DNA of 35,050 bases from Verrucomicrobiota bacterium (GTDB lineage Bacteria > Verrucomicrobiota > Verrucomicrobiia > Opitutales > Puniceicoccaceae): NCBI GenBank assembly GCA_038744685.1, contig JBCDMB010000029.1:1-35050 (forward strand), written 5' to 3'. The notes beneath the pieces are model-generated. The model saw nothing but the letters and a program-made list of their open reading frames with translations. It did no database searches and was not told the origin of the DNA. Below are positions 9,248 to 24,905 of the stretch, in pieces (the first letter of the stretch is position 1; every line of letters starts with the position of its first letter). A program made the position numbers and the translations under genes.

Positions 9248-11356
9248 ATGAAAAAACACGTTTTACTCACCTTAGCTGTCTTCGTAGTGGCTGCGCAAGC
9301 GCAAGACTCTGTGCCCACTACCATTCCCTACCAAGGTCTCATTGAGGTCGATGGCGAGCCCTTCACCGGCACCGGCCAGTTTTATTTCATGCTGGTTTCC
9401 AAGAATCCGCTGACCAGCACACCCACGACTGCCTCTGCCACTGTGACCAGTCGGGTGGATGGCGGGATAGAGGAAATCACGGTGAACACGGCGGGTTCGG
9501 GTTACACATCCGTTCCCGACGTAACCATCAGTGGCGGCGGTGGCTCCGGGGCAGCCGCGATCGCATCTATTTCAAGCGGAGGAATAATCACGGGTATCAC
9601 AATCACGGATTCGGGAACGGGTTACACATCCTCACCCACCGTTACGATCTCCAACCCCCAACCAGCGGAGCGAGCGATCTGGACAAACGAATCCGGGGCT
9701 CCGTCATCACTCTCACGCCCAAGCCAGTTCGAATCAATCCCGATCGTCGAAGGGAATTACTCTCTGCGGCTGGGTGACCCAGACCTAATGCCTGCTATCT
9801 TTCCGTTTGACCTCGATGATCCAGAGATATTCCTGAAGATCTGGTTCGACGACGGTACCAACGGAATCCAACAGCTTAGCCCAGATCAGCCCATCGGTTC
9901 GACGCCTTTTTCTTTAATCGCTCGGACGGTCATTGGAGCAGGCTCTGTCGCCTCGGGAACAAGTGCTGTCGCCATGGGCGACTTCACGACGGCCAGTGGC
10001 TTTGCCGCTACTGCCACGGGTAACCGCACGGCTGCCAGCGGCAGCGAGTCTACAGCCATGGGTAACAGCACGACTGCTAGTGGCTTTGCCGCTACCGCCA
10101 TGGGTAACCGTGCGACTGCCAGCGGCAGCGAGTCTACTGCCATGGGCGACAGCACGGTTGCCAGCGGTATTCACGCAACTGCCATGGGCGACCGCACGAC
10201 AGCCAGCGGTAATAACGCTACAGCCATGGGTAGAGAATCAACTGCCAGCGACTTCGCTGCTACCGCTATGGGCAACTTCACGATTGCCAGTGCCGGCGCT
10301 GCTACCGCAATGGGTGAACGCACGACTGCCAGCGGCGGAGAGTCTACCGCTATGGGCGCCTTCACGATTGCCAGCGGCGAGAGGTCTACCGCCATGGGTA
10401 ACAGCACAACAGCCAGCGGTCGTGTTGCTACCGCTATGGGCGTGGTTACGGTTGCTTCGTCTTTCTCTGAGACGGCGATCGGACTTTTTAATACAACTTA
10501 CACGCCAGCATCGACGTCATCGAGAAATAGCAGCGACCGCCTTTTCGTGATTGGCAATGGCTCCTCTGTTAATAACCGCTCCGACGCACTTATTGTTGAG
10601 AAAAGTGGTCAAGCCTTCTTCAAAGCGGATCCCGGCGCTGTCGATGGATTCTTTCCGAACAACTATGCGGCCGTAATTGAAAATACCGATGCCACTATTG
10701 GTGGTGATGCGCTCGCTATTAAAGTTCAAACGGTTACCCCCAATAACGCTGTCAATTTCCTAGCCTTCTTTGACGGAAACGACACCATCTTAGGTGAAAT
10801 CGACGGTAATGGGGCTGGTGGCGTAAGATTTCAATCCAACGGAGCCGACTATGCGGAATACCTCCCGGCTCTCGATCCGGATGAAGAACTGGAGGCCGGC
10901 GACCTCGTGGCCGTCCGCTCTGGCAAGATCACTCGGGACACCTCCTCTTTTGACCAACTGATGGTCATTTCGACCAATCCCATCGTGGTCGGGAACCGTC
11001 CAGAGGACTCCACGGGCTACCACAAGGTTGCCTTCATCGGCCAGGTGCCAGTGAAGGTGAGCGGTCCCGTCCGTTCCGGAGACTACCTTCTCGCCTCCGG
11101 GCTGAACGATGGCACGGCGGTCGCCAAGCCTGCCGAAGAAATCCGCGCCAGCGACCGCAGCCGCATCATTGGCCGCGCCTGGGACAGCAGTGATGCCGCA
11201 GGCGAGAAACTCATCAACGCTGCCGTCGGTTTGGATCTTGGCGAAGCCCTCGTCTCGGAGATTGAACAGCTCCGGTCCCAGCTGAGTCTCGTTATCGCAA
11301 GGCTTCAAAAGCTGGAAAACTCCGGAAGCGGAGCAAGTCCTACGACGGCCCCCTGA
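9248..11356 (+). CDS. Large secreted surface protein A1: YadA-head-like repeats and IMC-like C-terminus
   Basis: 702 residues. A signal peptide ends near AQAQ (about 19). Next comes an N-terminal beta domain (IPYQGLIEVDGEPFTG to LSPDQPIGSTPFSL, about 25-225) common in bacterial adhesin or tail-fibre-like proteins. It carries an insertion of two GSGYTS-type repeats (83-135). Residues 233-414 are thirteen 14-residue units of the TTASGxxSTAMGNx type, as in the left-handed beta-roll heads of YadA-like trimeric adhesins. Residues 532-660 (GADYAEYLP, STNPIVVGN, GQVPVKVSGPVRSGDYLLASG) resemble the intramolecular-chaperone/Peptidase_G2-like end of tail spikes. A short coiled coil (IEQLRSQLSLVIARLQKLE) follows. 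No YadA beta-barrel anchor is present, so it is probably secreted or held by another protein. Gene B1 begins 24 bases after it. Confidence 0.85.
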   Translation: MKKHVLLTLAVFVVAAQAQDSVPTTIPYQGLIEVDGEPFTGTGQFYFMLVSKNPLTSTPTTASATVTSRVDGGIEEITVNTAGSGYTSVPDVTISGGGGSGAAAIASISSGGIITGITITDSGTGYTSSPTVTISNPQPAERAIWTNESGAPSSLSRPSQFESIPIVEGNYSLRLGDPDLMPAIFPFDLDDPEIFLKIWFDDGTNGIQQLSPDQPIGSTPFSLIARTVIGAGSVASGTSAVAMGDFTTASGFAATATGNRTAASGSESTAMGNSTTASGFAATAMGNRATASGSESTAMGDSTVASGIHATAMGDRTTASGNNATAMGRESTASDFAATAMGNFTIASAGAATAMGERTTASGGESTAMGAFTIASGERSTAMGNSTTASGRVATAMGVVTVASSFSETAIGLFNTTYTPASTSSRNSSDRLFVIGNGSSVNNRSDALIVEKSGQAFFKADPGAVDGFFPNNYAAVIENTDATIGGDALAIKVQTVTPNNAVNFLAFFDGNDTILGEIDGNGAGGVRFQSNGADYAEYLPALDPDEELEAGDLVAVRSGKITRDTSSFDQLMVISTNPIVVGNRPEDSTGYHKVAFIGQVPVKVSGPVRSGDYLLASGLNDGTAVAKPAEEIRASDRSRIIGRAWDSSDAAGEKLINAAVGLDLGEALVSEIEQLRSQLSLVIARLQKLENSGSGASPTTAP
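9944..10489 (+). repeat. Thirteen 42-bp in-frame repeats in A1
   Basis: Thirteen consecutive 42-bp units encode 14-residue head repeats; the unit pattern is [T/S]xASGxxxTAMGxx. Units 2 and 4 (SGFAAT) and units 3 and 5 (SGSEST) look like a duplicated 84-bp pair. The array can grow or shrink by unequal exchange without changing frame. Confidence 0.9.
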
Positions 11357-11380
11357 GGCGCACCTAACTCTTCATTTGTC

Positions 11381-12010
11381 ATGAGAACTCTACTCGCTTT
11401 CTTTCTCACGGTTTCCAGTGTCTCCGCTCAGCAGAGCAGCACCAATTACTCCATTCCAATCTCCAGCATTGATGGTGGAAACGGCACGTCCTCTTCCAGC
11501 AACTATACGATCGTCACTAGCTCCATTGGGGGGATTTTTGGACGAGGCAGCTCGACGAGCTACTCGGTGAGGAGCGGTTATGTCGAGCAGTTCTCCTCGT
11601 TAGCCGACTTCATGCAGGGCATTGACCTGCGGGACTACGACAGCTGGAGTACTCAATTCCCAGGCACGGATCTCACCGACCGTCAGGGTGATGCTGACGG
11701 CGACCGCGTCAGCAATGAAGATGAGTTCATTGCGCTGACTGACCCCACCGATCCCAAATCCTTCCCATTCCTGGAGATTTTGTCCGTCGATCTGATCAAT
11801 AACACAGTTGAGCTTCGCTTCTCGCCCTACGAGACAGACGCTACCTTACGAACTTATCTCCTCCTCAGTCAGGAAGGCCTCACTGGAAGCTTCTTGCCGG
11901 TTCCCGGTGTCGTCCCAGTCGCATCCGGTGATGATGGCACTTTCACAGATTCCCGGACGGCCCCGGAACGACTGTTCTACCGGCTACGGATTTCCATCCC
12001 GAGCGAATAG
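11381..12010 (+). CDS. Secreted partner protein B1 with SSxNY repeats and a calcium-loop motif
   Basis: 209 residues with signal peptide (ending VSA|QQSS). The first 75 mature residues hold three copies of a Ser-rich motif: SSTNYSIPISSIDGG, SSSNYTIVTSSIGG and SSTSYSVRSGYVEQF. This pattern is seen in secreted proteins of several phyla, function unknown. Next is DLTDRQGDADGDRVSNEDEF, read as DADGDRVSNEDEF, an EF-hand/thrombospondin-3-like calcium loop. The TDPTDPKSFPFLEILSV stretch and a C-terminal beta domain ending LFYRLRISIPSE complete it. It starts 24 bases after A1, so the two are probably co-transcribed and may interact. Its mature part differs from B2 at only six residues. Confidence 0.8.
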   Translation: MRTLLAFFLTVSSVSAQQSSTNYSIPISSIDGGNGTSSSSNYTIVTSSIGGIFGRGSSTSYSVRSGYVEQFSSLADFMQGIDLRDYDSWSTQFPGTDLTDRQGDADGDRVSNEDEFIALTDPTDPKSFPFLEILSVDLINNTVELRFSPYETDATLRTYLLLSQEGLTGSFLPVPGVVPVASGDDGTFTDSRTAPERLFYRLRISIPSE

Positions 12011-12057
12011 AGTGGGGCGAATCCTGGGATGCCCACCCTCGAGTTCGGATCACTTTC

Positions 12058-12291
12058 ATGCTCATGAAAATCACTGCAACCCTTTGTATCACCTTAGTGC
12101 TTTTTTCGTTGGGTTGTTCCAGTCTTCTCGTGGGCTTCGAAGAAGACGCGTTGAGGAAGCAGTATCTCTCCGGGGAGATATCCGGCGACGAGTATTGGAG
12201 CCGGCTGGATCATCTGAGGACCAAGGAGAAGGAGATGCAGGCATGGGATGGACCGCTGTTCGGTGCCGAATCGGGCAAAAAAAGCCTCTGA
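12058..12291 (+). CDS. Small lipoprotein with SHOCT-like helix pair
   Basis: 77 residues (or 75 from the second ATG at 12064). A lipobox LFSLGC with the cysteine at residue 20 predicts a lipid-anchored protein. The mature part contains LRKQYLSGEISGDEYWSRLDHL, visible as LRKQYLSGEIS and DEYWSRLDHLR. This resembles the SHOCT short C-terminal domain, a two-helix module at the ends of many membrane proteins. No other domain is present. The gene lies 47 bases after B1 and could belong to the same transcript. Function unknown. Confidence 0.65.
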   Translation: MLMKITATLCITLVLFSLGCSSLLVGFEEDALRKQYLSGEISGDEYWSRLDHLRTKEKEMQAWDGPLFGAESGKKSL

Positions 12292-12406
12292 CGAGAACGA
12301 TAAAGACGGCAGGGATTGATCGAAAGGGATCAAACTGAGAATACAGTGCTAGCGAATTGCTGCGCTGGAGAAATGTAGGAGTTTACAGACTCTCAGCTAT
12401 GCTTCC

Positions 12407-12493
12407 TTACCGAAGAGTCTGTTGCATCACCGCCCGTATCTTCCCACGAACCGTTTCAGGTTCGTTGATCTTTTTCTTTAGCGCCTGATCCAT
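12407..12493 (-). CDS. Possible 28-residue small protein or gene remnant
   Basis: A short minus-strand frame beginning ATG at 12493 and reading MDQALKKKINEPETVRGK then IRAVMQQTLR. AGGA lies seven bases before the ATG and a TAA directly precedes it. The composition is strongly protein-like, basic and helical, but no family was recognised. It may be a genuine micro-protein, the end of a lost gene, or chance. Confidence 0.22.
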   Translation of the reverse strand: MDQALKKKINEPETVRGKIRAVMQQTLR

Positions 12494-12541
12494 TTAGTTT
12501 CCTATTTGACCCACTACTGTTTTCTTAATCCTGAGTCATTT

Positions 12542-13042
12542 ATGAAGACTATTTTGGTACTTGCGTGTTTCCTCTCTATTTCAGGCTCTGTTGCACCATT
12601 TGACCATATTGGGGAAAACTATTGGGTCATATTTGAGGATTTTACGGGAGATGCTCGCACAGATATTGCCATTACCTCGGCGCGCCCTTGGGGAAATGCT
12701 GGGATGTGGTGGTGGATTTACTCAGCACAACCCGATGGCAGCTACACTTATTTCGACGATGTATTCTTTCACCCCAAAGCCTTCCGCATCTATCCACTTG
12801 AAAAAAATGGGGCAGAACTAGTCACATACTATCGGTCGGATTCTAACTCTGGAAGTCTCATTACCTACCGAATTCAAGATGAGATCGAAGAGACCTCAAA
12901 GGTTACGATTTATCCTAAAGAAGGTGATCAAGAGTTATACGAAGATCACTTCTCCTATCTATGGAAGTTTCCTAGAGCGCTCAAGATCCCTACCAATAAG
13001 ATAAGATTCGATGGTAATTCACTGTCGATACAGGAACACTAA
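12542..13042 (+). CDS. Secreted hypothetical protein with FG-GAP/VCBS-like segment
   Basis: 166 residues from ATG 12542, chosen because it gives a clean signal peptide (MKTILVLACFLSISGSVA); an in-frame TTG at 12506 would put 12 polar residues in front. The mature N-terminus reads GENYWVIFEDFTGDARTDIAIT in blocks: YWVIFEDFTGD and ARTDIAITSARPWGN. The DxTGDxxxDIAIT form recalls FG-GAP/VCBS repeats. A Trp-rich GMWWWIY and many acidic residues follow. It is too short for a whole propeller. Likely exported; function unknown. Neighbours give no clue. Confidence 0.65.
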   Translation: MKTILVLACFLSISGSVAPFDHIGENYWVIFEDFTGDARTDIAITSARPWGNAGMWWWIYSAQPDGSYTYFDDVFFHPKAFRIYPLEKNGAELVTYYRSDSNSGSLITYRIQDEIEETSKVTIYPKEGDQELYEDHFSYLWKFPRALKIPTNKIRFDGNSLSIQEH

Positions 13043-13197
13043 CGAGTCCAAGGACGGGTACCTAGGAGTGTGACGAACTCAGTAAACCGCGAGGCCGTAA
13101 GTAATACTTTAATTGTTCGCATTCCAGGGAAAGAGACTGATTGGATGATCGGAATCGGGATGGGCCTTTGCAGAATAAGATATATGGGAGGCACATT

Positions 13198-13217
13198 CAC
13201 GGCGACTGAGCGCCGTG
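13198..13217 (-). terminator. GC-rich hairpin after the GT4 gene
   Basis: CACGGCG-ACTGAG-CGCCGTG, a perfect seven-bp stem placed two bases beyond the GT4 stop codon. It has no U tract after it on the minus strand, so it may stabilise the 3' end instead of terminating. Confidence 0.4.
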
Positions 13218-13218
13218 G

Positions 13219-14439
13219 CTACCTCTTGGATTTTTCGTAGTTGAATCGGTTCTTCGCTTCTATCCAACGGCTCATGTATTCCGTGCTGCGGTGGTGGTGG
13301 TGGCGGAGCATTTGGCCGACGAAGTGGTTTTTGCGGTTTTCGGTAGTAAGGGATTTTAATTGTTCGATCAGGCTGGGTGCCCATTCCTTGGCGAGGAAGC
13401 GGTCTTTGACGATGCGGTAGCCTTGGTGCTGAACCGTTTTCCATAGATCCGGCTTCGTGTAGAGCTCCACAGCGGTTTGGGCGAGACCGGGTGCATCGGC
13501 GTGTATCAGGCAGCCCCAGTCGATGGGCCCGTTCATCGATTCCGCTGCAATGGGTGTGACTACTGTCGGCGTGCCGGAGCAAAAGCCGTCAGCGACCTTG
13601 CCTTTCTGTCCGGCACCGAAACGGAGAGGTGCGAGGTTTACCCGGTAACGTCCGAGCGTTTTCATCGACTCCTCGGCTCGACCGCAGAAGTAGATTCCGT
13701 TTGCGGCGTTCTCTAGTTGCCGGACCTTTTCCGGCTCATAGGAGCCGTATAGGTGAAGCGCGGCGTCGGGTAATTGCTGGCGGATGATCGGCCAAATTTG
13801 ATCACAACACCAGTGGACGGCATCCCAGTTGGGTGCGTGAAGGTAGTTACCTATCATCACGAAGTCTTTTCGGTCTTCGAAAGTGGATGTCGAAGGTAGA
13901 GGCGAATCCAACATCAGAGGCAGATAACTCAACTGAGTGGCAGGCACTTGAAAGACCGATTGTAGGCATTCGATTTCGAACTCGGAAATGATCCAGCTCA
14001 GATCGGAACGAAAGATCGCTGCAATCTCACGGAGTGCCACGTCATTGAAAAGATTCAGGTTACCCCCGTGCTTCAACTGCTGCTCGCGTGCTTCCCGTAG
14101 ACAGTGGAGATCAATGGTATCGAGAATTCGTAAGGTATCGGGACAGGCTTTTTCGATTCGCCAGCCGAATTGCTCTTCCGTCATGTAGCGGTCAAACACT
14201 ACGAAGTTTGGCGCCAGCGATCGCACCCAATGATCGAAAGCGTCATCGTTGACTTGTGATTTTCTGGTCGAAACACCTTTCTTGAGGAGGTCGTCGGAGT
14301 GCTCGGTGGGCTCTGCCGTTGTCGTAAAGGTCACTGACCAATTTACGGTTAAGAACGCATCGATAAGCCCCATCGTCCGGGTGCCAGCAGCACTCGAGAG
14401 GGGCTCGGGGTAGACTTTGCCGATGACTAAGACTTTCAT
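13219..14439 (-). CDS. Glycosyltransferase, GT4/GT1-like family
   Basis: 406 residues, GT-B fold. The N-terminal Rossmann half begins KVLVIGKVYPEPLSSAAGTRTM, the start typical of GT4 enzymes that bind an acceptor near the GxR loop. The C-terminal half shows FVMIGNYLHAPNWDAVHW, LHLYGSYEPEKV and the donor-binding loop APLRFGAGQKGKVADGF followed by SGTPTVVTPIAAESM. It should transfer a sugar from an activated donor, probably for surface polysaccharide. Sugar and acceptor are unknown. It stands alone on the minus strand with ATG at 14439. A second glycosyltransferase (GT9) lies 2.7 kb away, in a different operon. Confidence 0.87.
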   Translation of the reverse strand: MKVLVIGKVYPEPLSSAAGTRTMGLIDAFLTVNWSVTFTTTAEPTEHSDDLLKKGVSTRKSQVNDDAFDHWVRSLAPNFVVFDRYMTEEQFGWRIEKACPDTLRILDTIDLHCLREAREQQLKHGGNLNLFNDVALREIAAIFRSDLSWIISEFEIECLQSVFQVPATQLSYLPLMLDSPLPSTSTFEDRKDFVMIGNYLHAPNWDAVHWCCDQIWPIIRQQLPDAALHLYGSYEPEKVRQLENAANGIYFCGRAEESMKTLGRYRVNLAPLRFGAGQKGKVADGFCSGTPTVVTPIAAESMNGPIDWGCLIHADAPGLAQTAVELYTKPDLWKTVQHQGYRIVKDRFLAKEWAPSLIEQLKSLTTENRKNHFVGQMLRHHHHRSTEYMSRWIEAKNRFNYEKSKR

Positions 14440-14550
14440 TCAGTCGAAGTGGAGGTAAATTGTTATAAGGATGAAACAGGATTCAACTTACGTCCGCAGG
14501 CGATCCTGAATGTGCGTTGCCTTAAAGAAAGCTGGGGACGAAAGAACTTC

Positions 14551-15059
14551 TCTCACAGAGGCGCAGAGCGCACGAAGGATGTTGAGAATAGGATGGTTAT
14601 TCTGGATTTAGATTTCCATGGATTATTCTGGTGATTCCGTTCTTCATCAGTTCCTCCCCAAAATTTAGAAGGTAACCAAGGCGGCAATCGGTGAGTTTCA
14701 AATAGGTAAGAAGCTGCTTCTTGTGCGCCGGATGAATCTTCTCAACCGACTTTAATTCAATGATGACTTTCTCGTTCACGAAAAGGTCCGCACGAAAACC
14801 CTCATCAAAAGTCATTCCGTCATATTCAATGCGAACGGGGTGCTGGCGCTTTGCGGGTAGACCTTCGTTCTCCAAAGAACGAGCAAGGATGGTCTCATAA
14901 ACCGATTCAAGGAGCCCGGGTCCAAGTTTCTGGTGAAGTTGGATAGCGGCAGTAACGATGATTGATCCAATATTGTTTTAGTTCATCAAAATATATACAT
15001 GTGTTCACTATTTTTAATATGCAAGCTTTCTGCTCCGTGGGCTCTGAGCCTCTGTGAGA
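14551..15059. mobile_element. Inverted-repeat-bounded unit around GxxExxY gene
   Basis: A 509-bp segment bounded by 24-bp inverted repeats at 14551-14574 (TCTCACAGAGGCGCAGAGCG plus CACG) and 15036-15059, which match at 22 of 24 positions when one is reversed. The only gene inside is the GxxExxY gene on the minus strand. No target-site duplication was seen. The structure suggests a small cassette mobilised in trans, but the ends may equally be copies of a dispersed repeat family. Confidence 0.5.
14597..14986 (-). pseudogene. GxxExxY family protein, broken by a stop at codon 3
   Basis: The frame from ATG 14986 reads M-N-stop-NNIGSIIVTAAIQLHQKLGP then GLLESVYETILARSLENEG. It continues to the natural end at 14597 with EYDGMTFDEGFRADLFV, VIIELKSVEKIHPAHKKQLLTYLKL and GYLLNFG. 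The signature GLLESVYE (G-x-x-E-x-x-Y) is present and the rest of the family is complete, so only the TAA at 14980-14978 departs from the usual MNENEIG-like start. One change (GAA to TAA) would explain it. Translation could still begin at ATT 14971 or at the TTG at 14875; the latter would lose the signature. Function of the family is unknown, though it looks nuclease-like in parts. It is enclosed by inverted repeats. Confidence 0.72.
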
Positions 15060-15104
15060 ATTTTTTAAAAGGATAAGCGTCAATAAGCGCTGCATAAGCG
15101 GTTT

Positions 15105-15117
15105 CCGGCTACGCCGG
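15105..15117. repeat. Short CCGGC/GCCGG palindrome before gene at 15134
   Basis: CCGGC-TAC-GCCGG, a five-bp stem with a three-base loop 17 bases upstream of the next ATG. It could be the end of a dispersed repeat or a small structured leader. Confidence 0.25.
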
Positions 15118-15133
15118 ACCTCTGACCCTTTAC

Positions 15134-16069
15134 ATGATCCCTGAAATTTGTGAAATACTGACTATGGAGTCCACGATCACCAGCGGTGCGGTCTACCCGC
15201 AGGAGGTTTGGCGGGCGATTGCTCAGCGTCAATATGAGCGCGCAAATCAGTGGACGGATCCCTACCGCGAGAGAAGAGCGAGTGGAACACTTCATCCTGT
15301 CTACGATTTTCTGTTTGTTTATTATCGGGTCAGGCCGACTCAGCTCGAAGTCTGGCATCCGCAGTTTGGCATCACCCTTACTGGTGCTGGTGAGGAGACC
15401 TTCTATCAACATCGATTCTACCGGCATGATTCGAATGACGCGACGCTCGATCCGAGTCGAATGGAGCCGAGTGCGCGCCACCGTCTTGAAATGGCCCTCC
15501 GACTTTGCGAGACGGTTTACGAACGTCCGCCCAAGTTTGGCTGTTTCGGGATGCATGAATGGGCGATGGTCTATCGCGGAGACTTCGAGGGCGAGATCCG
15601 CCATTCGGAACAACTGCCTCTCCGACTAAGCCAGAAGGAAACTGACGCGTTCGTGCGGAGCCAACCGATCGCTTGCAGCCATTCCGATGCGTTTCGATTC
15701 TTCAGCGAAGGGGCAAAACCCTTTAACCGAGTCCAACCCACCAAGGAGACCCGAATCGACCATGAGCAATGTGGCTGCCTTCATACCAATATGGATCTTT
15801 ATAAGATCTGCGGTCAGTGTATGCCCTGGGTGGGGAGCGACCTCTTGTGGCGGTGTTTCGAATTCGCGATCGAGGCACGCATCCTCGATATGCGGGCAAG
15901 CCCCTATGATTGCCGTTCTCTCGGTTTCGATCCCATTCCCATTGAGACGCCCGAGGGAAGGGCTGACTACGAGCGGCTTCAGCGGGGACTCCACGAGCGG
16001 GCGCAGCCGCTACGGAAAGAAATCATCGACTGTCTTCAGGATGTCTTGGTAAGAGGCAAGAGGGGTTGA
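15134..16069 (+). CDS. Protein of the family often labelled '3-methyladenine DNA glycosylase'
   Basis: 311 residues (301 from the second ATG at 15164). It belongs to a conserved family that databases often name 3-methyladenine DNA glycosylase, although it lacks the motifs of AlkA, Tag or MPG, so the name should not be trusted. Conserved blocks visible are HPVYDFLFVYYRVRPTQLE, WHPQFGITL, PPKFGCFGMHEWAMVYRG, CSHSDAFRFF, EQCGCLHTNMDLYK and DMRASPYDC. The many conserved His, Cys and Asp residues suggest metal binding. Likely cytoplasmic. No clear Shine-Dalgarno sequence for either start. It converges on the GT9 gene with 59 bases between. Confidence 0.7.
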   Translation: MIPEICEILTMESTITSGAVYPQEVWRAIAQRQYERANQWTDPYRERRASGTLHPVYDFLFVYYRVRPTQLEVWHPQFGITLTGAGEETFYQHRFYRHDSNDATLDPSRMEPSARHRLEMALRLCETVYERPPKFGCFGMHEWAMVYRGDFEGEIRHSEQLPLRLSQKETDAFVRSQPIACSHSDAFRFFSEGAKPFNRVQPTKETRIDHEQCGCLHTNMDLYKICGQCMPWVGSDLLWRCFEFAIEARILDMRASPYDCRSLGFDPIPIETPEGRADYERLQRGLHERAQPLRKEIIDCLQDVLVRGKRG

Positions 16070-16128
16070 AAGAAAGTTTATCCCGGATCTAGCCTAGGGC
16101 AGCAGTGGGGCGTTTCGCAAACCCTTCG

Positions 16129-17160
16129 CTAGGTTGCCGTCAATAGCTTCTCAGAACTGGATGGGTTTTCCGCTTGAAGGTCCAGGCCGGTCAGGCATCG
16201 GTCGAGCACACTTTCTGTGGAAATCGTGGACAAGTCTCCGCCGGGTAGTGGATCGATGGTCCAGTCGCGATGACGGTAGGGTATGGAACATCCGGGAGTG
16301 TCCGCACTGCGATTTAGAACCATCAGCACACGGAGTTCGAGCGCTACCGCCAGATGAAGAATGCCGGTATCTCCTCCAAGAACCATGCGAGAAAGAGAGA
16401 GGAGGCCTGCGGTTACTAAAAGGGAGTGGCCGGCAAATACAGGATAGGCCTTGGATCGAGCATTTTCGAGCCGGAGTCTGTCTGACGGGCCGCCGCAGAA
16501 CGCGACCTGCACTCCACGGGAACGGAGTTGATCGGCAACCGTTAGAAACCTTTCGAATGGCCAGTCCTTCCTGACGCTACTGGTGAACGGCTGAATCATT
16601 ACTGTGTGTCGATCCGGGTAGAGTCCACATTCATTGAAGAGAGCCGCCGCCTGTTGTCGGTAGCGGTTGGGAAGAACAAACCGGTTGTCAGGTGAATCTT
16701 CCCGAAGTCCACATTCTCTCAGCAGCGTCAGATTCCAATCAATTGTATGGCGGTCGAGTTTCCGAAGAACGGGGCGCGTGTAAAACCGACTTCTCGAGTC
16801 TTTGTACACCGATCCCCATCGCTCTTTGGCTCGACTAAATCGCGTGATCCAGGCAGTTTCTCCATAACCCTGAAAATCGATCACGTGGGTGAATCTCTTG
16901 CTTCGAATCAGGCTGAGAAGCGAAACAAGAACCGGGACCGCAGGCCAAAATTTCTTAACGGCAGGTCGATCAATTGCCATCACTTCATCAACGGATGCGA
17001 ACCCTTCCAGCAATGGGGCGATGGACTTGCATACAAGGAAGGTGATGTGAGCGTTGGGCCTGTTCTTTCGGACTGCGTTCACCGCTGGGAGCGTGTGAAG
17101 AACGTCGCCGATCGATTTGAACCGGATAATGAGTATCCGTTCTTGATGAGAGTCGTTCAT
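16129..17160 (-). CDS. Glycosyltransferase family 9 (heptosyltransferase-like)
   Basis: 343 residues from ATG 17160; the open frame extends 75 codons further upstream but that part overlaps the histidine kinase gene and is not protein-like. The start ERILIIRFKSIGDVLHTLPAV is the classic GT9/WaaC-WaaF beginning (IIRFKSIGDVLHTLP). The C-terminal half has VMIQPFTSSVRKDWPFERF, VAFCGGPSDR and the donor site LSLSRMVLGGDTGILHLAVAL, seen as VLGGDTGILHLA. It probably adds a heptose or related sugar to lipopolysaccharide core on the cytoplasmic face. It is the last gene of the mipA-RR-HK-GT9 operon, 25 bases after the kinase stop, which links envelope sugar transfer to this two-component system. Confidence 0.9.
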   Translation of the reverse strand: MNDSHQERILIIRFKSIGDVLHTLPAVNAVRKNRPNAHITFLVCKSIAPLLEGFASVDEVMAIDRPAVKKFWPAVPVLVSLLSLIRSKRFTHVIDFQGYGETAWITRFSRAKERWGSVYKDSRSRFYTRPVLRKLDRHTIDWNLTLLRECGLREDSPDNRFVLPNRYRQQAAALFNECGLYPDRHTVMIQPFTSSVRKDWPFERFLTVADQLRSRGVQVAFCGGPSDRLRLENARSKAYPVFAGHSLLVTAGLLSLSRMVLGGDTGILHLAVALELRVLMVLNRSADTPGCSIPYRHRDWTIDPLPGGDLSTISTESVLDRCLTGLDLQAENPSSSEKLLTAT

Positions 17161-17185
17161 CCGGAACGTGGCAGCGCAACAGATC

Positions 17186-18397
17186 CTAGAGGACAGATTC
17201 TGGATTCTTTGCTGGACGAAACCCAATCCGCACGGTGAGTCCTTCGCTGGCATCAAAAGACAGGTTCCAATCCATTCGTCGGCAGATGCGGGCGACAAGA
17301 GCGAGGCCAAGGCCGCCGCAGGGTAGGGGATGGCCGCGGTCGAGGGCGTTCTGGATCTCGGCAAGTCCATCCATTCCCCGGCCATTGTCGCGGACGGTCA
17401 GGCATTCTTCGGTAAGGGAGACTGTGATCGTATTCGCTTCAGCGTGCTGGATGGCGTTGTGTAGCAGGATTCCAGCGACAAGGATCACCATCCGAACTGC
17501 AAGAGGTTCCAGTGGATCCCATTCCTTTGCATCCGATAATGTTCCTGCAAAGCTCTCGCGGTATTCTGCGATCATGGTTTCCCATTCGTGGTCAAGGCTG
17601 GCGCCGGACAGGTGTTGCTCCTGGCGCGCGAGGGCAAGGAGGCCTTCCACGGTGTGCTCCATGCGTTGGACCGACCTTTTCAGTCGTTCGAGGCCGTCTG
17701 GGGAGAGTCCTTGTTCTTCCGCGATTTCACTGAGGCCTTTGATGATGTTGATTGGATTGCGCAGCTCATGGCTCGCTTCACGGAGAAACGCGCGTTCCCG
17801 ATCCAGTTGGCTGGTGCGTTGAACCAGATAACGCTCCAGCGCTTCGGAGAGTAAGCGGGTTTCCGCGTCCGGCAGATTTTTTGGGGGCGCCTCGGTAGGG
17901 TCATCTCTCTGGAGCCATTGCGTGAGTTCCTCAATTGGGCGAACGGAGATTCTGGCAATTAGGAGACCGATGAGAACGCCCGCCGCAGAAAGACCCAATG
18001 CACCGGCCCAGATGACTCCTGTGGCTCTCTTCTCCAACGCTTCAATTTCCGGTGTGCGCATGATGGCAACCATACGGGTGCCGTCTGATTCGGATACGAT
18101 GAGAAGGTGGAGTTCTTCGGCTGTCTCGACGTTTTCCTTGGGGTGGGAGAACTCATGGTATCCATCCTCTAACGTCGCAATCCTTTCCGCTAACGCTGTT
18201 GGAACGTCCTGTTCAGGAGTGACGATTACCAAGGGAGGTTCCGTCTCACCACTCTGTGCGTTCGCCATGACCTTCGCCAATTGCTTGCGGTAGGTCCAGT
18301 CCTCGGTCTCGTGGTAGACGAGGAAAATCAGAAATCCGAACAAGGATGCGAGCCCGATGGAAAAAAGAGCAAACGCCCAGATCAACCGCTTACGCAT
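17186..18397 (-). CDS. Sensor histidine kinase
   Basis: 403 residues from ATG 18397 (the frame is open eight codons earlier). Two membrane helices (about 7-28 and 127-149) flank a periplasmic region of about 95 residues with no recognised fold. A short HAMP-like segment (ISVRPIEELTQWL) follows. The H box is REASHELRNPINIIKG with H210 as phosphorylation site. The ATPase domain has the N box LLHNAIQHA, the G1 box DNGRGM and the G2 box GGLGLALVARI. The start overlaps the response regulator's last codons by eight bases, indicating translational coupling. With the upstream MipA gene, an envelope or cation signal is likely, but this is inference. Confidence 0.93.
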   Translation of the reverse strand: MRKRLIWAFALFSIGLASLFGFLIFLVYHETEDWTYRKQLAKVMANAQSGETEPPLVIVTPEQDVPTALAERIATLEDGYHEFSHPKENVETAEELHLLIVSESDGTRMVAIMRTPEIEALEKRATGVIWAGALGLSAAGVLIGLLIARISVRPIEELTQWLQRDDPTEAPPKNLPDAETRLLSEALERYLVQRTSQLDRERAFLREASHELRNPINIIKGLSEIAEEQGLSPDGLERLKRSVQRMEHTVEGLLALARQEQHLSGASLDHEWETMIAEYRESFAGTLSDAKEWDPLEPLAVRMVILVAGILLHNAIQHAEANTITVSLTEECLTVRDNGRGMDGLAEIQNALDRGHPLPCGGLGLALVARICRRMDWNLSFDASEGLTVRIGFRPAKNPESVL

Positions 18398-19067
18398 GGC
18401 GTGCTTGGACGGCGTGACCATAGCCGCGGATAGTGTGGATTAACGGATGGGAGAATGGTTTATCCACCTTTTGCCTGAGTTGATAGATGTGTGTGCGGAT
18501 CGTCTCATCCTCGACGAAGGTCTCGTGCCATACCCTCCTGGCCAGTTCTTCTTTGTTGATCGCTTCGGGGCTCATGGCGCAGAGGGTTGCGAGCAGGTCA
18601 AACTCGAGTCGGCTCAGATCGAGTGGCTTACCGTCGCGCTTGGCCGAACGGACGTCGAGGTCGAGGAGAAGGTCAGCCACCTCGATCTGTCGAGTGGTGA
18701 TGCCCTGACTGCGTCGGACTAAAGCTTGCAGCCGGGCATGTAGCTCCGCCAACGCGAAGGGTTTGACGAGATAATCATCCGCCCCTGTGCTTAATCCCTC
18801 GACCTTGTCTTCGATGGTATCCCGGGCGGTTAGCATGATGATGGGAAGATCGGCCTTGGCATCCTTGCGCAACTTTTGACAGAGCTCCAATCCGGAGATG
18901 CCCGGAAGCCCGATATCAAGGATGATCGCGTCCGGAGTCGAAGTGGTGGCTAGATGCAAACCGCTCAGTCCATCATAGGCGTGGTCCGATTCCACCCCAC
19001 GGGCAGACAGGTACTCTGCAATGGTCGTGGAAAGATCCACATCATCCTCGATCAATAGCACCTGCAT
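18390..19067 (-). CDS. OmpR/PhoB-family response regulator
   Basis: 225 residues from ATG 19067 (a TTG codon directly before it is in frame). The receiver domain has the acidic pair D8/D9 in LLIEDDVD, phospho-acceptor D51 in AIILDIGLPG, T80 in MLTARD and K102 in YLVKPFA. The C-terminal winged helix (about 125-222) reads LDLSRLEFDLLATL, then RRVWHETFVEDETIRTHIYQLRQKVD (blocks RRVWHETF, RTHIYQLRQKVD) and IHTIRGYGHAV. It starts nine bases after the MipA stop and overlaps the kinase gene. A direct repeat with an 11-bp period upstream of mipA matches how this family binds DNA, so it probably controls its own operon. Confidence 0.95.
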   Translation of the reverse strand: MQVLLIEDDVDLSTTIAEYLSARGVESDHAYDGLSGLHLATTSTPDAIILDIGLPGISGLELCQKLRKDAKADLPIIMLTARDTIEDKVEGLSTGADDYLVKPFALAELHARLQALVRRSQGITTRQIEVADLLLDLDVRSAKRDGKPLDLSRLEFDLLATLCAMSPEAINKEELARRVWHETFVEDETIRTHIYQLRQKVDKPFSHPLIHTIRGYGHAVQARHA

Positions 19068-19076
19068 CAATTGACC

Positions 19077-19877
19077 CTACCAACGGATGAAGACTCCAGC
19101 AACACTTGCTGCGGTCAAATCACTCATCACCAAAGGACTGTCTGCTGCTTCGCCCAAATACTGCTCCAGCTGAATCAAGGTGAAAAAGCTGAAATGTTCG
19201 GTGAAGTCGTATTGGAATTGAACTACGTATTCGATGTTCTTGATTCCGGCCTTGGGATTGTATTCGGGCAGACCCGTCCGCTCCGACTCTTGGGCGGTGA
19301 TATTGAATTCGGTCTCCATATGGGTTTTGTCCCCTCCCGTGAGACCAAGGCGCTGGCGGAAAGCGACCCGGTCGGTGATTTGCCAGTCGTAGCCAGCACC
19401 GGTAAACCAGACGAGGCCTTTTCCCCTGCCCAGAATATCGGGTTGAAGGGAGCCGTAGACGTAAAAACTGTCCCATTTGTAAGAGAGTTGAAAGTTCCCG
19501 TCGAGCGTATCATCGATTTCGTCAAGACCTTCGAAGTCCGCGCTCTCACCATCTCCTCCTGCCTCGTATTCAATCGCGACGAAAAAGTTGAAGTCCTCCG
19601 TGATGTCGAATGATCCGGAAACCCCGATCGGATAGACCGCGTATCGGTTGTTCCACTTGTCTTTCACTGAGAAACGCAAGAACGGAAAAATTTCACCTTC
19701 GGTTTCATCTGATCCCGGGTAAGTGGGTTCGATCCCCCACCCAAGGAATCCGTCGATCCACCACGGCTTCTCCTCATAGTCCTGCCGATACCAAGGGCCG
19801 AACGGGTTGCGATTTGTATCCGCAAACAGGGTCGTTGCGCACAGCAAGAACAAGAGGATAGATAGATTTCGTTTCAT
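19077..19877 (-). CDS. MipA/OmpV family outer membrane protein
   Basis: 266 residues with signal peptide (SILLFLLCATTLFA). The mature protein alternates polar and aromatic residues as in a beta barrel. It has the family hallmarks GIEPTYPGSDETEGEIFPFLRF (short form: EPTYPGSDE, FPFLRF) near the N-terminus and YLGEAADSPLV near the end, and it ends in FIRW with a C-terminal aromatic typical of BAM-assembled barrels. MipA is a scaffold for murein enzymes in E. coli; OmpV-like relatives vary, so the exact role is unknown. It is the first gene of a four-gene operon with a two-component system, which suggests the regulator adjusts this protein's level. Confidence 0.85.
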   Translation of the reverse strand: MKRNLSILLFLLCATTLFADTNRNPFGPWYRQDYEEKPWWIDGFLGWGIEPTYPGSDETEGEIFPFLRFSVKDKWNNRYAVYPIGVSGSFDITEDFNFFVAIEYEAGGDGESADFEGLDEIDDTLDGNFQLSYKWDSFYVYGSLQPDILGRGKGLVWFTGAGYDWQITDRVAFRQRLGLTGGDKTHMETEFNITAQESERTGLPEYNPKAGIKNIEYVVQFQYDFTEHFSFFTLIQLEQYLGEAADSPLVMSDLTAASVAGVFIRW

Positions 19878-19922
19878 AGATTGCCGCTTGTGAGTAGGAG
19901 ATGAGGAGTCTGCCAGAAGGCA

Positions 19923-19940
19923 CGTGAAGAAAGCGTGAAG
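19923..19940 (-). promoter_or_regulatory. OmpR-type direct-repeat binding site upstream of mipA
   Basis: CGTGAAG-AAAG-CGTGAAG on the plus strand: two identical seven-base copies with four bases between, an 11-bp period. OmpR/PhoB-family dimers bind this arrangement head to tail. It lies 46 bases upstream of the mipA start, a suitable place for activation. Confidence 0.55.
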
Positions 19941-20186
19941 TCCGCGTCATGGTTTCATAAAGAGTGAGGATTCCTCTTAGGGAAGCGCAGGGCGCGCGGA
20001 GTCTCGTTTTCATCTCTGGGAGGTCCTCGTTTGTTCTGGTGGAGAATGTTCTTGGAACGTTGGAATCACCACGAAGAGCACCGAGTGTCACGAAGCTATT
20101 AGTGGCTTGGCTCTCTTTCGTTCTTTTCTCGAACGATTTTTTGAACCTCGGTCTCTTGGGTCTTTACTCAACCGAGGTTTTGAGGA
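19941..20186. other. Intergenic region with a CACGAAG repeat
   Basis: Apart from the direct repeat above, this gap between divergent genes contains ACCACGAAGAGCACCGAG...CACGAAG at 20068-20095. It is a degenerate tandem motif similar in style to the ends of the GxxExxY unit (CAGAG...CACGAAG). No gene seen. Confidence 0.3.
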
Positions 20187-20201
20187 GTGTCCTTGCAGCC
20201 A

Positions 20202-21149
20202 ATGACTGAATCCGGCCAATCACTACGAAGAATCACCCGTTCGCTCATCCAATTTCTGATTTCGTGGAAAGGATTGATCCTCGCTGCGGTGGTTTTGTTC
20301 CTCGCCTACAGTATTCTGAATACCCGGCTCGGTGTTCACCTTGTGCTGGATGTTTTCACTGAGCTTGGGGAGGAGGAGGAAGTGATCCGCCCTGCTTCCC
20401 AAGGGCCGCTAAAGATCTCAGCCGTTCTAACGCCGGTCGAGACGATTCCCCTCCCAGAAGGAATCGAACAACCTTCCGGCATCAAACATCGAAACAGAAA
20501 GGTTTATATTTCGACTGATCAGGTGGAACTCTTTGTGTTGGGGGTCGACTTTAAGGAAACCAAGAGTTCTACGGTATTACGAAAGGGACCCCTTCTGTTT
20601 AAACAGGGGATCCTGGAGGGAATTGAGGTTCAGGAGGGTCGTCTGATTGGGGTCGGCGAGCTGGGAGAAATTCCTGTTTGGGTCAAGGATAGCTATGGAG
20701 GGTGGCTGGAGGTTGCGCCCCTTTCGGTGTCTCATCCGGTAAAAGCTCTTGAGTTCACCGGGATTGCTCAAACGCCGGATGGACTTGTTGCAACCGTTGA
20801 GGGCTCTCTGGAGTTGCTCGCTTTGAAAACGGCCACTCCGATCCAACTCTCTTTTGGCTCTTTTGTGAAGGAGGACGGGGATTTACTCGGACTCGCGTTT
20901 TCCGGTATCGCCTACCATGACGGAGCTTACTTCCTCCTGACTGAGCAATACACCTCGGTTTTGGTTTTCGGTGCAAAGAGCGCCGCCCTTCAGTATGTGT
21001 TCGAGGTTGAGCCCTCTGCCGCGGCGGATCTTTCCTATTACGACGGGAAGATCTACGTCGTGATCGATCATAATTACAACGAGCCTCGGCCCGATGTTCA
21101 GGTTTATGATATTGAAGCTGCGATGGCTGAATTGGATTCTGAATCGTAG
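20202..21149 (+). CDS. YjiK-like (SdiA-regulated domain) membrane-anchored protein
   Basis: 315 residues from ATG 20202. A GTG at 20187 and a TTG at 20193 are in frame; GAGGAG at 20182-20187 is best spaced for the TTG, so the start is uncertain. One membrane helix (GLILAAVVLFLAYSIL) near residue 30 is followed by a periplasmic beta-propeller-like domain of the SdiA-regulated/YjiK family. Its blocks are LPEGIEQPSGIKHRNRKVYISTD (short: EQPSGIKH, KVYISTD), LEGIEVQEGRLIGVGE, FSGIAYHDGAYFLLTEQ and LSYYDGKIYVVIDHN. These propellers resemble those that follow and display bound ligands, but no activity is known. It is divergent from the mipA operon. Confidence 0.75.
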   Translation: MTESGQSLRRITRSLIQFLISWKGLILAAVVLFLAYSILNTRLGVHLVLDVFTELGEEEEVIRPASQGPLKISAVLTPVETIPLPEGIEQPSGIKHRNRKVYISTDQVELFVLGVDFKETKSSTVLRKGPLLFKQGILEGIEVQEGRLIGVGELGEIPVWVKDSYGGWLEVAPLSVSHPVKALEFTGIAQTPDGLVATVEGSLELLALKTATPIQLSFGSFVKEDGDLLGLAFSGIAYHDGAYFLLTEQYTSVLVFGAKSAALQYVFEVEPSAAADLSYYDGKIYVVIDHNYNEPRPDVQVYDIEAAMAELDSES

Positions 21150-21954
21150 CGGATTCATTCGTCATCTCATTGGTTTGGAAGTAGCGGGTGCAAGGCTAGT
21201 TGACTCGATGATTGCGCTCCCTCGAGCGAGCCACCATCTGGGTTTTTCCTTTTTCTGGTGAACACTTGGTAGATGGGTTCCTGAACCCGATACAGATCAG
21301 TGTAGAAGATGGCACAGGCACCTAGCCGGAACCAAACGTGTGGATCGTCCATGCGAGCAACAGGGCAAAACTAGGTAGCAGTGACTAGGCTGGTTAGTTC
21401 TGCGGTCGCACCAATCAGACGTCCAAGGAAAGGATGATCACCATACAAACGCTCAGAAATGGAGAAGGTGCGCATTACGGTTGGTCGAGATCACGAGGCC
21501 TACTTAACCCACTGAACGATCCCATAGAATCTTAGAGTCAACCGGCAGGCTGAGCCTTTTCGATGTTGCAGCCATTCGGCCTTCGCTGTAGGGGTCTCTC
21601 CAGATGGTTTGCTTGATTCTTACGGCTCTGGAAGACCTGTCAGGACTCGATTGCCTATGCGGCTTCAAAGTATGTGGTTGCCACGGCTCGAAGATGCAGA
21701 GTTACACCCATTTGAAATGGTGAGGTGCTGTCGGTTTCTCCCATGAGCATGGAACTCAAACGCATCCCATTTGACCTCTTCGCCACTGTCCCGCGTCCAC
21801 TAAGGTCCCTTCAAAGAGTAGCTTCACACGGTTCCGTCGGTGTAGGCGTTTCGATTTTCACGCTCAATCCTGTTGAAGTGGGCTTCCGACGGTTTGAACG
21901 CTTCCTCTCTTTCCGAATTCACTGCGTGAATCCATCCACATCCAGTCCAATCAC
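21150..21954. other. Gene-poor 805-bp region upstream of cassette copy 2
   Basis: No intact gene recognised. On the minus strand one frame from 21535 to 21167 gives protein-like pieces broken by TAG 21502-21500, TGA 21493-21491 and TAG 21373-21371. They read FSISERLYGDHPFLGRLIG, TAELTSLVTAT and DDPHVWFRLGACAIFYTD followed by LYRVQEPIYQVFTRKRK. This could be a decayed gene, but no family is evident. A perfect ATTCAC-TGC-GTGAAT palindrome lies at 21917-21931, 24 bases before the A2 start, and may be an operator. The 77-codon frame at 21725-21958 overlapping A2 is probably not real. Confidence 0.25.
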
Positions 21955-24069
21955 ATGAATAAACACGTTTTGCTCACCTTTGCCGCAGCCATCTTCCTAG
22001 TGACTGCACAAGCTCAAGACCAAGTGCCCACTACCATTCCCTACCAGGGTCTCATTGAGGTCGATGGCGAGCCCTTCACCGGCACCGGCCGGTTTTATTT
22101 CATGCTGGTTTCCAAAAATCCTCTGACCAACACCCCCAAGACTGCCTCTGCCACCGTGACCAGTCGGGTGGATGGCGAGATCGATAGAATCATCCTAAAC
22201 TCAAGAGGATCAGGTTACACATCCGTTCCTACAGTCACCATTAGTGGCGGCGGTGGTTTCGGGGCAGCCGCGAGTGCATTCATCTCAAGCAGAGGACTAG
22301 TCACAGCTATCACAATCACGGATTCGGGAACAGGCTATACATCCTCTCCCACCGCTACGATCACAGCTCCCCAACCAGCGGAGAAAGCGCTTTGGACTAA
22401 CGAAACCGACTCCCCATCATCACTCTCACGCCCGAGCCAGTTCGAATCAATCCCGGTCGTCGCAGGGAATTACTCTCTGCGGCTGGGTGATCCGGACATC
22501 ATGCCGGGTATCTCCGGAAGCAACGTCTTCCAGCCCGATGTCTTCCTCAGGATCTGGTTCGATGACGGTAGCAATGGCATCCAACAGCTGAGTCCAGATC
22601 AGCCCCTCGGTTCGACGCCTTTCTCCCTAACTGCTCAAACCGTCATTGCCCCGGATTCTTCCGCGACGGGATTCCGTTCCACTGCCATGGGCTCTAGAAC
22701 AACTGCCAGCGGCTTTTACTCTACCGCAATGGGCGATAGCACGACTGCCAGCGGCTTTTTTTCTACCGCAATGGGCCAATTAACGACTGCCAGTGGCGGC
22801 GTTGCTACCGCCATGGGTGAACGCACGACGGCAAGCGGCGTCCGCTCTACCGCCATGGGCAACGGGACGACTGCCAGCGGCGACGAATCTACCGCCATGG
22901 GCAACAGCACGACTGCCAGCGGAAAGAATTCTACCGCCATGGGCAACGGGACGACTGCCAGCGGCTTAAACTCTACCGCTATCGGCTTTTTAACGACTGC
23001 GAGCGGCGATAGCGCCACCGCAATGGGCTTTTTCACTACTGCCAGCGCGAACAGCGCTACCGCCATGGGCCGGAACACGACTGCCAGCGGCTTAGACTCT
23101 ACCGCCATGGGCTTTTTAACGACTGCGAGCGGCGATTTCTCTACCGCCATGGGTGCCGATACGATAGCTCCGTCCTTCAGTGAGACCACGGTTGGGTCCT
23201 ACAATACGATATACACGCCAGTATCCAACCTCTTAAGCAATCCCATTGATCGCCTCTTCGTCATCGGCAACGGCACCTCTAATGGTAACCGCTCCGACGC
23301 TCTGATTGTCGAGAAAAGTGGTCAAGCCTTCTTCAAAGCGGATCCCGGGGCAATCGATGGGAGCTTAACCACCGACTATGCGGCTGTGATTGAGAACACC
23401 GACGCCACTGAGGGTGGTGACGCGCTCGCTCTGAAAGTTCAGACGGTTAACCCCACCAGTGCCTCCAATTTCCTCGCCTTCTTTGACGGAGACGACACCG
23501 TTTTGGGCGAAATTGACGGCAACGGGAGTGGTGGCGTCAGATTTCAATCCACTGGGGCCGACTACGCGGAATACCTCCCGGCTCTCGATCCGGATGAAGA
23601 ATTGGAGGCCGGAGACCTGGTGGCCGTCCGCTCTGGCAAGATCACTCGGGACACCACCTCATTTGATCAACTGATGGTCATTTCGACCAATCCTATCGTG
23701 GTCGGAAACCAGCCAGCGGACTCCACGGGCTTCCATAAGGTTGCCTTCATCGGCCAAGTGCCGGTGAAGGTCAGTGGTCCCGTCCGTTCCGGAGACTACC
23801 TTCTCGCCTCTGGGCAGAACGATGGTACGGCGGTCGCCAAGCCCGCCGCAGAAATCCGCGCCAGCGACCGCAGCCGGATCATTGGCCGCGCCTGGGACAG
23901 CAGTGATGCCGCGGGCGAAAAACTCATCAACGCTGCCGTCGGCCTGGATCTTGGCGTAGCCCTCGTTTCCGAGATCAAAAGCCTCAACGAAGAGGTGGAG
24001 CAACTTCGCTCCCAACAGAGTCGTTTCAACGAGCGGCTTCAAAAGCTTGAAGGCCCTGGAAATGAGTGA
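21955..24069 (+). CDS. Large secreted surface protein A2, paralogue of A1
   Basis: 704 residues with the same domain order as A1: signal peptide (ending AQAQD), N-terminal beta domain with two GSGYTS repeats, thirteen 14-residue head repeats (235-416), a GADYAEYLPALDPDEELEAGD-type C-terminal domain (short: GADYAEYLPALD) and a coiled coil. Compared with A1, the N-terminal and C-terminal domains are nearly the same, while the head units differ in almost every variable position. A2 units are more regular (TTASGxxSTAMG). The coiled coil is five residues longer (SLNEEVEQLRSQQSRF), while A2 lacks the short Ser/Gly tail of A1. The signal peptide and upstream DNA also differ, so expression of the two may be separate. 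Gene B2 follows after 95 bases. Confidence 0.85.
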   Translation: MNKHVLLTFAAAIFLVTAQAQDQVPTTIPYQGLIEVDGEPFTGTGRFYFMLVSKNPLTNTPKTASATVTSRVDGEIDRIILNSRGSGYTSVPTVTISGGGGFGAAASAFISSRGLVTAITITDSGTGYTSSPTATITAPQPAEKALWTNETDSPSSLSRPSQFESIPVVAGNYSLRLGDPDIMPGISGSNVFQPDVFLRIWFDDGSNGIQQLSPDQPLGSTPFSLTAQTVIAPDSSATGFRSTAMGSRTTASGFYSTAMGDSTTASGFFSTAMGQLTTASGGVATAMGERTTASGVRSTAMGNGTTASGDESTAMGNSTTASGKNSTAMGNGTTASGLNSTAIGFLTTASGDSATAMGFFTTASANSATAMGRNTTASGLDSTAMGFLTTASGDFSTAMGADTIAPSFSETTVGSYNTIYTPVSNLLSNPIDRLFVIGNGTSNGNRSDALIVEKSGQAFFKADPGAIDGSLTTDYAAVIENTDATEGGDALALKVQTVNPTSASNFLAFFDGDDTVLGEIDGNGSGGVRFQSTGADYAEYLPALDPDEELEAGDLVAVRSGKITRDTTSFDQLMVISTNPIVVGNQPADSTGFHKVAFIGQVPVKVSGPVRSGDYLLASGQNDGTAVAKPAAEIRASDRSRIIGRAWDSSDAAGEKLINAAVGLDLGVALVSEIKSLNEEVEQLRSQQSRFNERLQKLEGPGNE
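22657..23202 (+). repeat. Thirteen 42-bp in-frame repeats in A2
   Basis: The same number and length of units as in A1 (546 bp), but with different variable residues. Two GFLTTASG units (8-9 and 11-12) and two NGTTASG units suggest internal duplication. The unit pattern is TTASGxxSTAMGxx; the last unit (TIAPSFSETTVGSY) is degenerate in both arrays. Confidence 0.9.
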
Positions 24070-24164
24070 AGCAAAGCAACGAAATCATGAGATAAGGAGA
24101 ACTTGATGCCACATCTCTTCGGGCAACATTCTCCACCTGAATCGCATTAGACTTGGTATTCATT

Positions 24165-24794
24165 ATGAAAACTTTTCTCGCTCTCTTTCTTGCTGTTTCG
24201 AGTGTCTCTGCTCAGCAGAGCAGCACCAATTACTCCATTCCAATCTCCAGCATTGATGGTGGAAACGGCACGTCTTCTTCCAGCAACTACACGATCGTTA
24301 CTAGCTCCATTGGGGGGATTTTTGGACGGGGAAGCTCAACGAGCTACTCGGTGAGGAGCGGTTATGTCGAGCAGTTCTCATCGTTAGCCGACTTCATGCA
24401 GGGCATTGACCTGCGGGACTACAACAGCTGGAGTACGCAATTCCCAGGCACGGATCTCACCGACCGTCAGGGTGATGCTGACGGCGACCGCGTCAGCAAT
24501 GAAGATGAATTCATTGCGCTGACTGACCCCACTGATCCCCAATCCTTTCCATTCCTGGAGATTTTGTCCGTAGATCTGATCAGTAACACAGTTGAGCTTC
24601 GCTTCTCGCCCTACGAGACGGACACTACCTTACGAACTTATCTACTCCTCAGTCAGGAAGGCCTCACTGGAAGCTTCTTGCCGGTTCCCGGTGTTGTCCC
24701 AGTCGCATCCGGCGACAATGGCACTTTCACAGATTCCCGGACGGCCCCGGAACGACTGTTCTACCGGCTACGGATTTCCATCCCGAGTCAGTAG
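24165..24794 (+). CDS. Secreted partner protein B2, near-identical paralogue of B1
   Basis: 209 residues from ATG 24165 (TTG at 24153 is in frame but gives an unlikely signal peptide). Same layout as B1: signal peptide, three SSxNY-type motifs, the DADGDRVSNEDEF calcium-like loop and a C-terminal beta domain. It differs from B1 at four residues in the signal peptide and six in the mature chain: D/N in RDY[D/N]S, K/Q in TDP[K/Q]S, N/S in LI[N/S]NT, A/T in TD[A/T]TL, D/N in GD[D/N]GT, and the last residue E/Q. Most DNA differences are silent. Such conservation next to a diverged head fits either strong constraint or recent gene conversion. Confidence 0.8.
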   Translation: MKTFLALFLAVSSVSAQQSSTNYSIPISSIDGGNGTSSSSNYTIVTSSIGGIFGRGSSTSYSVRSGYVEQFSSLADFMQGIDLRDYNSWSTQFPGTDLTDRQGDADGDRVSNEDEFIALTDPTDPQSFPFLEILSVDLISNTVELRFSPYETDTTLRTYLLLSQEGLTGSFLPVPGVVPVASGDNGTFTDSRTAPERLFYRLRISIPSQ

Positions 24795-24889
24795 CAGGGA
24801 GTTTCCAAAAGCCTTCCGACAGGCAGAAACAGAGACGACTTCAGGCCTCAGTGCAGCGTTCTCTGGATGAGTTGACTTGTGACTCATTC

Positions 24890-24905
24890 GTGCAAGGCTT
24901 TGCAC
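24890..24905 (+). promoter_or_regulatory. VapB operator candidate abutting the start codon
   Basis: GTGCAA-GGCT-TTGCAC is a perfect six-bp inverted repeat that ends on the base before the VapB ATG. TTGACT at 24872-24877 may be a -35 box. No Shine-Dalgarno sequence fits between, so binding here would cover the transcription or translation start. Confidence 0.5.

Follow-up and report, generated by a model that had tools for sequence, protein, structure and literature searches.

Organization of the two cassettes

The window analyzed in this study is a stretch of 35,050 nucleotides from a Verrucomicrobiota bacterium. The first-pass annotation had described two pairs of genes in it, here called A and B, and we confirmed their open reading frames: both pairs lie on the + strand, in the same orientation, 12.7 kb apart. 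A1 (9248..11356, +) encodes a predicted secreted fibre protein of 702 aa and is followed by B1 (11381..12010, +), which encodes a predicted secreted partner of 209 aa. The second pair consists of A2 (21955..24069, +; predicted secreted fibre protein, 704 aa) and B2 (24165..24794, +; predicted secreted partner, 209 aa, 95% identical to B1). The start codon of B2 that is homologous to that of B1 is the ATG at 24165, not the TTG at 24153. Similarity between the cassettes at the DNA level extends from the start codon of A to near the stop codon of B, and the flanks are unrelated. No third close copy was detected in the 3.64 Mb genome, in which only these two copies matched.

The neighbours of the cassettes are ordinary chromosomal genes (among them glycosyltransferases, a histidine kinase, MipA, VapB, COX1 and PurK). 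The VapB antitoxin gene (PF09957) is located directly behind B2 (window positions 24879-25516), and an overlapping downstream ORF probably encodes VapC. At positions 53-2989 the window encodes a Ser/Thr protein kinase fused to WD40 propellers. Contig C11 of the same genome carries a third, distant A-B pair (L068:4201-7379), whose A-type gene has the same N-domain and an S74 end and overlaps the B-type gene by one base.

Architecture of protein A

Protein A is composed of a signal peptide, an N-domain, 13 YadA-type repeats, a connector, a Peptidase_G2 intramolecular chaperone domain and a coiled coil. The N-domain of A1 (aa 22-225; 9311..9922, +) is MAT_N-like and carries a GSGYTSxP insertion; that of A2 lies at 22024..22635 (+). 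The head is built of 13 units of 14 aa in both proteins, and a Pfam search detected YadA_head repeats (PF05658) in A1 (9923..10528, +; E = 1.2e-21) as well as in A2 (22636..23241, +; E = 4.8e-35). The best PDB matches of the head were BpaC and BoaA-type heads. A C-terminal membrane anchor barrel was absent from A1 and A2 in the Pfam search, and their C-terminus is formed by the G2 domain and the coil. These domains agree with the earlier description of A as a putative fibre of surface type that has a YadA-like head but lacks a barrel.

The Peptidase_G2 domain (PF11962) was placed at aa 515-665 of A1 (10790..11242, +; E = 1.7e-5, family alignment) and at 23503..23955 (+) of A2. The gathering score of 25 was reached by A2 (28.4 bits; E = 9.4e-8 for the domain alone), while A1, with 24.7 bits, was 0.3 below it; the domain is 95% identical between the two. 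An alignment of G2-type fibres contains an invariant ADYAE motif. It resembles the SDYAE found in the chaperone domain of a phage tailspike in PDB (E = 0.017), which we treat as a lead only. The C-terminal coiled coil was recognized in the sequence of A1 (11243..11353, +) and corresponds in A2 (23956..24066, +) to helix 667-703 of the AlphaFold model. Models of A were obtained from shallow alignments and were poor in the C-terminal half, and Foldseek with the model gave nothing at E < 0.001. We considered an ice-binding head and rejected it (PF21300 below cut-off). A lost barrel as the origin of A was also rejected, since the copies are intact and the outgroup cassettes are likewise without barrel.

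Likeness of protein A to known systems

Type Vc YadA-type trimeric autotransporter adhesins share the 14-residue YadA_head repeats with A; in contrast to them, A has no C-terminal membrane anchor barrel and ends with the chaperone and coiled coil. Phage tail spikes with a Peptidase_G2/IMC chaperone (phi29 gp12 type; D4 domain of Dpo31) similarly end in a G2 domain that contains a DYAE motif, whereas A is chromosomal and has a signal peptide and the partner B.

The first-pass annotation knew of no named system with this composition; this has to be revised in that the mosaic adhesive trimer (MAT) fibres of Bdellovibrio resemble A (PMC10769870). Like A, they have a signal peptide, a conserved N-terminal beta-rich domain and a long fibre, and they lack a membrane barrel (PMC10769870). 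Their tips are interchangeable, as in A-type proteins, and comprise S74 chaperone and C-type-lectin types among others (PMC10769870). Their base attachment and base partner are stated there as unknown (PMC10769870). In contrast to MAT fibres, the N-domain of this subgroup has an insertion of approximately 85 aa, and A combines a YadA-type head with a G2 chaperone and has a fixed small partner gene, B. The curated MAT_N cut-off (NF053851, 60 bits) was not reached by A2 (E = 0.0077), A1 (no match) or relatives (at most 29.6 bits), nor in any of 145 phylum genomes. Subthreshold MAT_N matches were present in 7 of 7 relatives (E from 5e-7 to 0.0035), one of them spanning positions 4-145 of 162. The combination of a shared base with interchangeable tips, a feature of the MAT superfamily, was found here as one N-domain type with many ends. 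We conclude that A, a possible member of the MAT superfamily, is built like a MAT fibre and would work like one. No named two-gene system of A-B composition and no literature on verrucomicrobial fibres of the A kind were found.

Protein B and its C-terminal module

Protein B consists of a signal peptide, a Ser/Asn/Tyr-rich N-module, a TSP3/EF-like loop and a C-terminal module that weakly resembles Fn3. In B1 the calcium-like loop (DADGDRVSNEDEF) is located at 11690..11728 (+); it was recognized in the sequence, and TSP3_bac matches 10 of 35 relatives of the C-terminal module. The module itself (11771..12007, +), which was found through B, ends with FYRLRISIPSE. Bacterial TSP3-containing secreted proteins have a comparable TSP3/EF-like loop; B differs from them in that it has no Pfam match itself and no Pfam model covers the Fn3-like part of its C-terminal module. 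NCBIfam matches of B to Amuc_1099 and PamT were partial and below cut-off, and we found no literature on PamT. Searches of PDB profiles with alignments of B and of the C-terminal module gave just weak EF-hand and Fn3 matches. The AlphaFold model of B, based on a shallow alignment, was poor (pLDDT 47).

We observed that the C-terminal module ends no more than 8 aa from the stop in 55 of 56 full matches, the proteins being otherwise unrelated. It occurs in approximately 20 other proteins of the window's genome (contigs L243-L270), nearly always at the C-terminus, and is present in 46 of 96 phylum genomes. This suggests a role of the module in sorting or attachment, analogous to that of other C-terminal sorting domains.

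Association of A-type and B-type genes

In an order-wide search the strongest B matches adjoined A-type genes, and weaker ones adjoined a lamin-tail protein (L113) or an FGE-sulfatase protein (L115). Some of these loci had been chosen through A, therefore separate A-only and B-only tests were made. In the B-only search of 289 phylum genomes, 14 of the 15 B genes fetched had an A-type neighbour and one had none; these genes were hand-picked as short, near full-length matches, and the proportion applies to that subset. Direct adjacency on the same strand was observed for 12 of the 15 (in L198 and L199 the A gene matches the N-domain weakly), one pair had an intervening gene (G416, L185) and one was divergent (G396, L187). 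In the A-only scan, B was found beside all 8 uncut S74/G2-ended fibre genes, compared with 4 of 16 genes with other ends, where the B of L134 was read from DNA and one B is common to two fibres in L142. Many non-chaperone A-type genes have no adjoining B. In G093, B is likewise missing from two G2 fibres; its tandem G2-ended fibre genes (L074:3812-18938) have no B gene nearby. A search of genome contigs with B alone gave no relatives; these were found by the A-based search.

The A-type genes beside B end with G2, S74, FGE-sulfatase, tail collar, kelch or GDSL domains. Since these ends vary, the shared element is the N-domain of A, and B tracks the N-domain and not the head. The A-B adjacency anticipated for related genomes was thus observed, and the A-B pairing is a real conserved module recurring across Verrucomicrobiota. 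At three loci (L144, L140, L117) an A-type N-domain with an FGE-sulfatase (C-type-lectin-like) end stands beside B; these may represent a variable-tip class.

The anchoring role suggested for B by the first-pass annotation is plausible. In our opinion, the view that B acts in trans to anchor the base of the fibre falls somewhat short of an even chance. Its main rival gives B a dedicated role in assembly or export, as a periplasmic chaperone or as a plug at the base, which we consider possible but doubtful. Such a factor would fit with one B serving the two neighbouring fibres of L142, and with the most regular presence of B beside chaperone-ended fibres. However, many large, unrelated proteins also have the C-terminal module of B at their very end, as would be expected of sorting or attachment and not of a single-client chaperone. 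An extended form of the anchor view, which we put forward only tentatively, is that B could be the so far missing anchor at the base of MAT-like fibres in Verrucomicrobiota, with its C-terminal module as an undescribed phylum-wide sorting or attachment domain, acting in trans because a chaperone or tip occupies the C-terminus of the fibre.

Divergence between the two copies

We compared A1 with A2 and both with two outgroup cassettes of A(G2)-B structure from other genomes, L190 (13 repeats) and L239 (7 repeats), assigned to the same class, not the same order. The protein identity of A1 and A2 was 79% for the N-domain, 59% for the head, 78% for the connector, 95% for the chaperone domain and 67% for the coil. 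The ends of A had been described as almost the same in both copies, which holds for the chaperone domain and less so for the N-domain. Identity to the outgroups was 42-53% for the N-domain, 48-54% for the head, 79-85% for G2 and 44-48% for B, so the heads of the two copies are about as different as heads between lineages. Divergence of the copies relative to the two outgroup cassettes was lowest for B (0.04; 0.01-0.08), followed by G2 (0.27), the N-domain (0.32) and the head (0.81; 0.66-0.96). The dS values between copies had the same order (B 0.15, G2 0.32, N-domain 0.43, head 0.82). The expected head-specific peak of divergence was therefore present, and dN was highest in the head (0.35). 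A codon-level scan had been proposed as well; it gave this dN peak, but dS peaked in the head too, and the dN/dS of the head was 0.43, not above 1.

B1 and B2 differ at 10 residues. Six of these lie in the mature protein, the number given in the first-pass annotation. B is 44-48% identical between lineages but 95% identical between copies; therefore it is not slow-evolving, and the copies are young or homogenised. The constancy of B reflects recent duplication, homogenisation or gene conversion and not strong constraint, so that of the two causes proposed earlier, selection and gene conversion, the former, taken as strong selection, is not sustained. Neither a donor nor a conversion tract was directly identified.

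According to another explanation, the whole cassette was duplicated recently and one head was then replaced by recombination from an unseen third cassette. We observed three apparent ages in one cassette and similarity that starts and ends abruptly, as such a replacement would produce. Nevertheless, we are inclined to doubt it, as there is no third related head in this genome, and more than one event would be needed since dS of the N-domain and G2 (0.32-0.43) exceeds that of B.

Head repeat arrays

The 13 head repeats had been reported to keep number and length and to differ in their variable residues. This was observed, as only 3 of 48 variable residues in units 1-12 agree by position; however, the head does not behave as an array that is hypervariable position by position. 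For units 1-11 of A1 and A2 the same-position identity was 0.675, compared with 0.678 after permutation. Framework codons had a weak positional signal (0.651 vs 0.588, P = 0.019), variable codons none. The best four-unit block matched A1 units 8-11 with A2 units 3-6, i.e. with a shift of five units, at 80% identity, as in the flanks (P = 0.004 at this block length, one of four tried). Tandem periods determined with TRF also differ (42/84 bases in A1, 42/126 bases in A2).

The raised dS of the head, the lack of a position match and the outgroup with 7 repeats favour repeat turnover. Turnover together with substitution is the simplest account of the head and fits better than pure diversifying selection; it was not complete, as indicated by the weak positional signal of the framework. 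Diversifying selection on a position-preserving head, in which repeats stay in register, exposed residues are replaced and the rest is under purifying selection, is unlikely in our view. It would explain why repeat number is equal in A1, A2 and L190, and why framework codons retain some positional signal while variable codons are fully randomised. It is opposed by the head dS (0.82, compared with 0.15-0.43 elsewhere) and the dN/dS of 0.43, by the shifted best match without positional identity over units 1-11, by the 7 repeats of L239, and by the fast evolution of B between lineages.

Proposed model

Taken as a whole, the reading that the cassettes encode a secreted trimeric fibre A and a secreted partner B as its anchor, with copies diverged as a mosaic, has in our estimation an even chance of being correct. 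A would be exported and would then trimerise with the aid of the Peptidase_G2 intramolecular chaperone. Its N-domain would form the base and the YadA-type repeats the exposed, changeable part, presumably at the cell surface. B would bind the common N-domain of A and hold the fibre on the cell surface via its C-terminal module; it would be needed in trans because the chaperone or tip occupies the C-terminus of A. The two cassettes would have arisen by duplication. The likeness of B and of the ends of A would be due to recent duplication or gene conversion, whereas the head arrays would have diverged as repeats were gained, lost and copied and as substitutions accumulated. A prophage tail fibre or a broken trimeric autotransporter is highly improbable: YadA-type repeats and G2/S74 chaperones do occur in phage tail proteins, but A and B have signal peptides, the neighbours are ordinary chromosomal genes, the copies are intact and the outgroup cassettes also lack a barrel. 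Phage origin was rejected, as the cassettes are not set in a phage gene context.

As tips change across the phylum while the partner gene stays with the fibre base, the question of MAT base attachment becomes testable in culturable relatives, e.g. Cerasicoccus frondis (L142). If B fixes the fibre to the cell surface, it would address the open question of how such fibres are held. Its C-terminal module, found on many large verrucomicrobial proteins, is a candidate general surface-sorting domain, and the twin cassettes offer a natural comparison of head change with homogenised ends.

Separately, we noted that the GSGYTSxP insertion of the A N-domain recurs as repeats in very large ORFs of two genomes (G051:C2, 9178 aa; G071:C25, 6472 aa).
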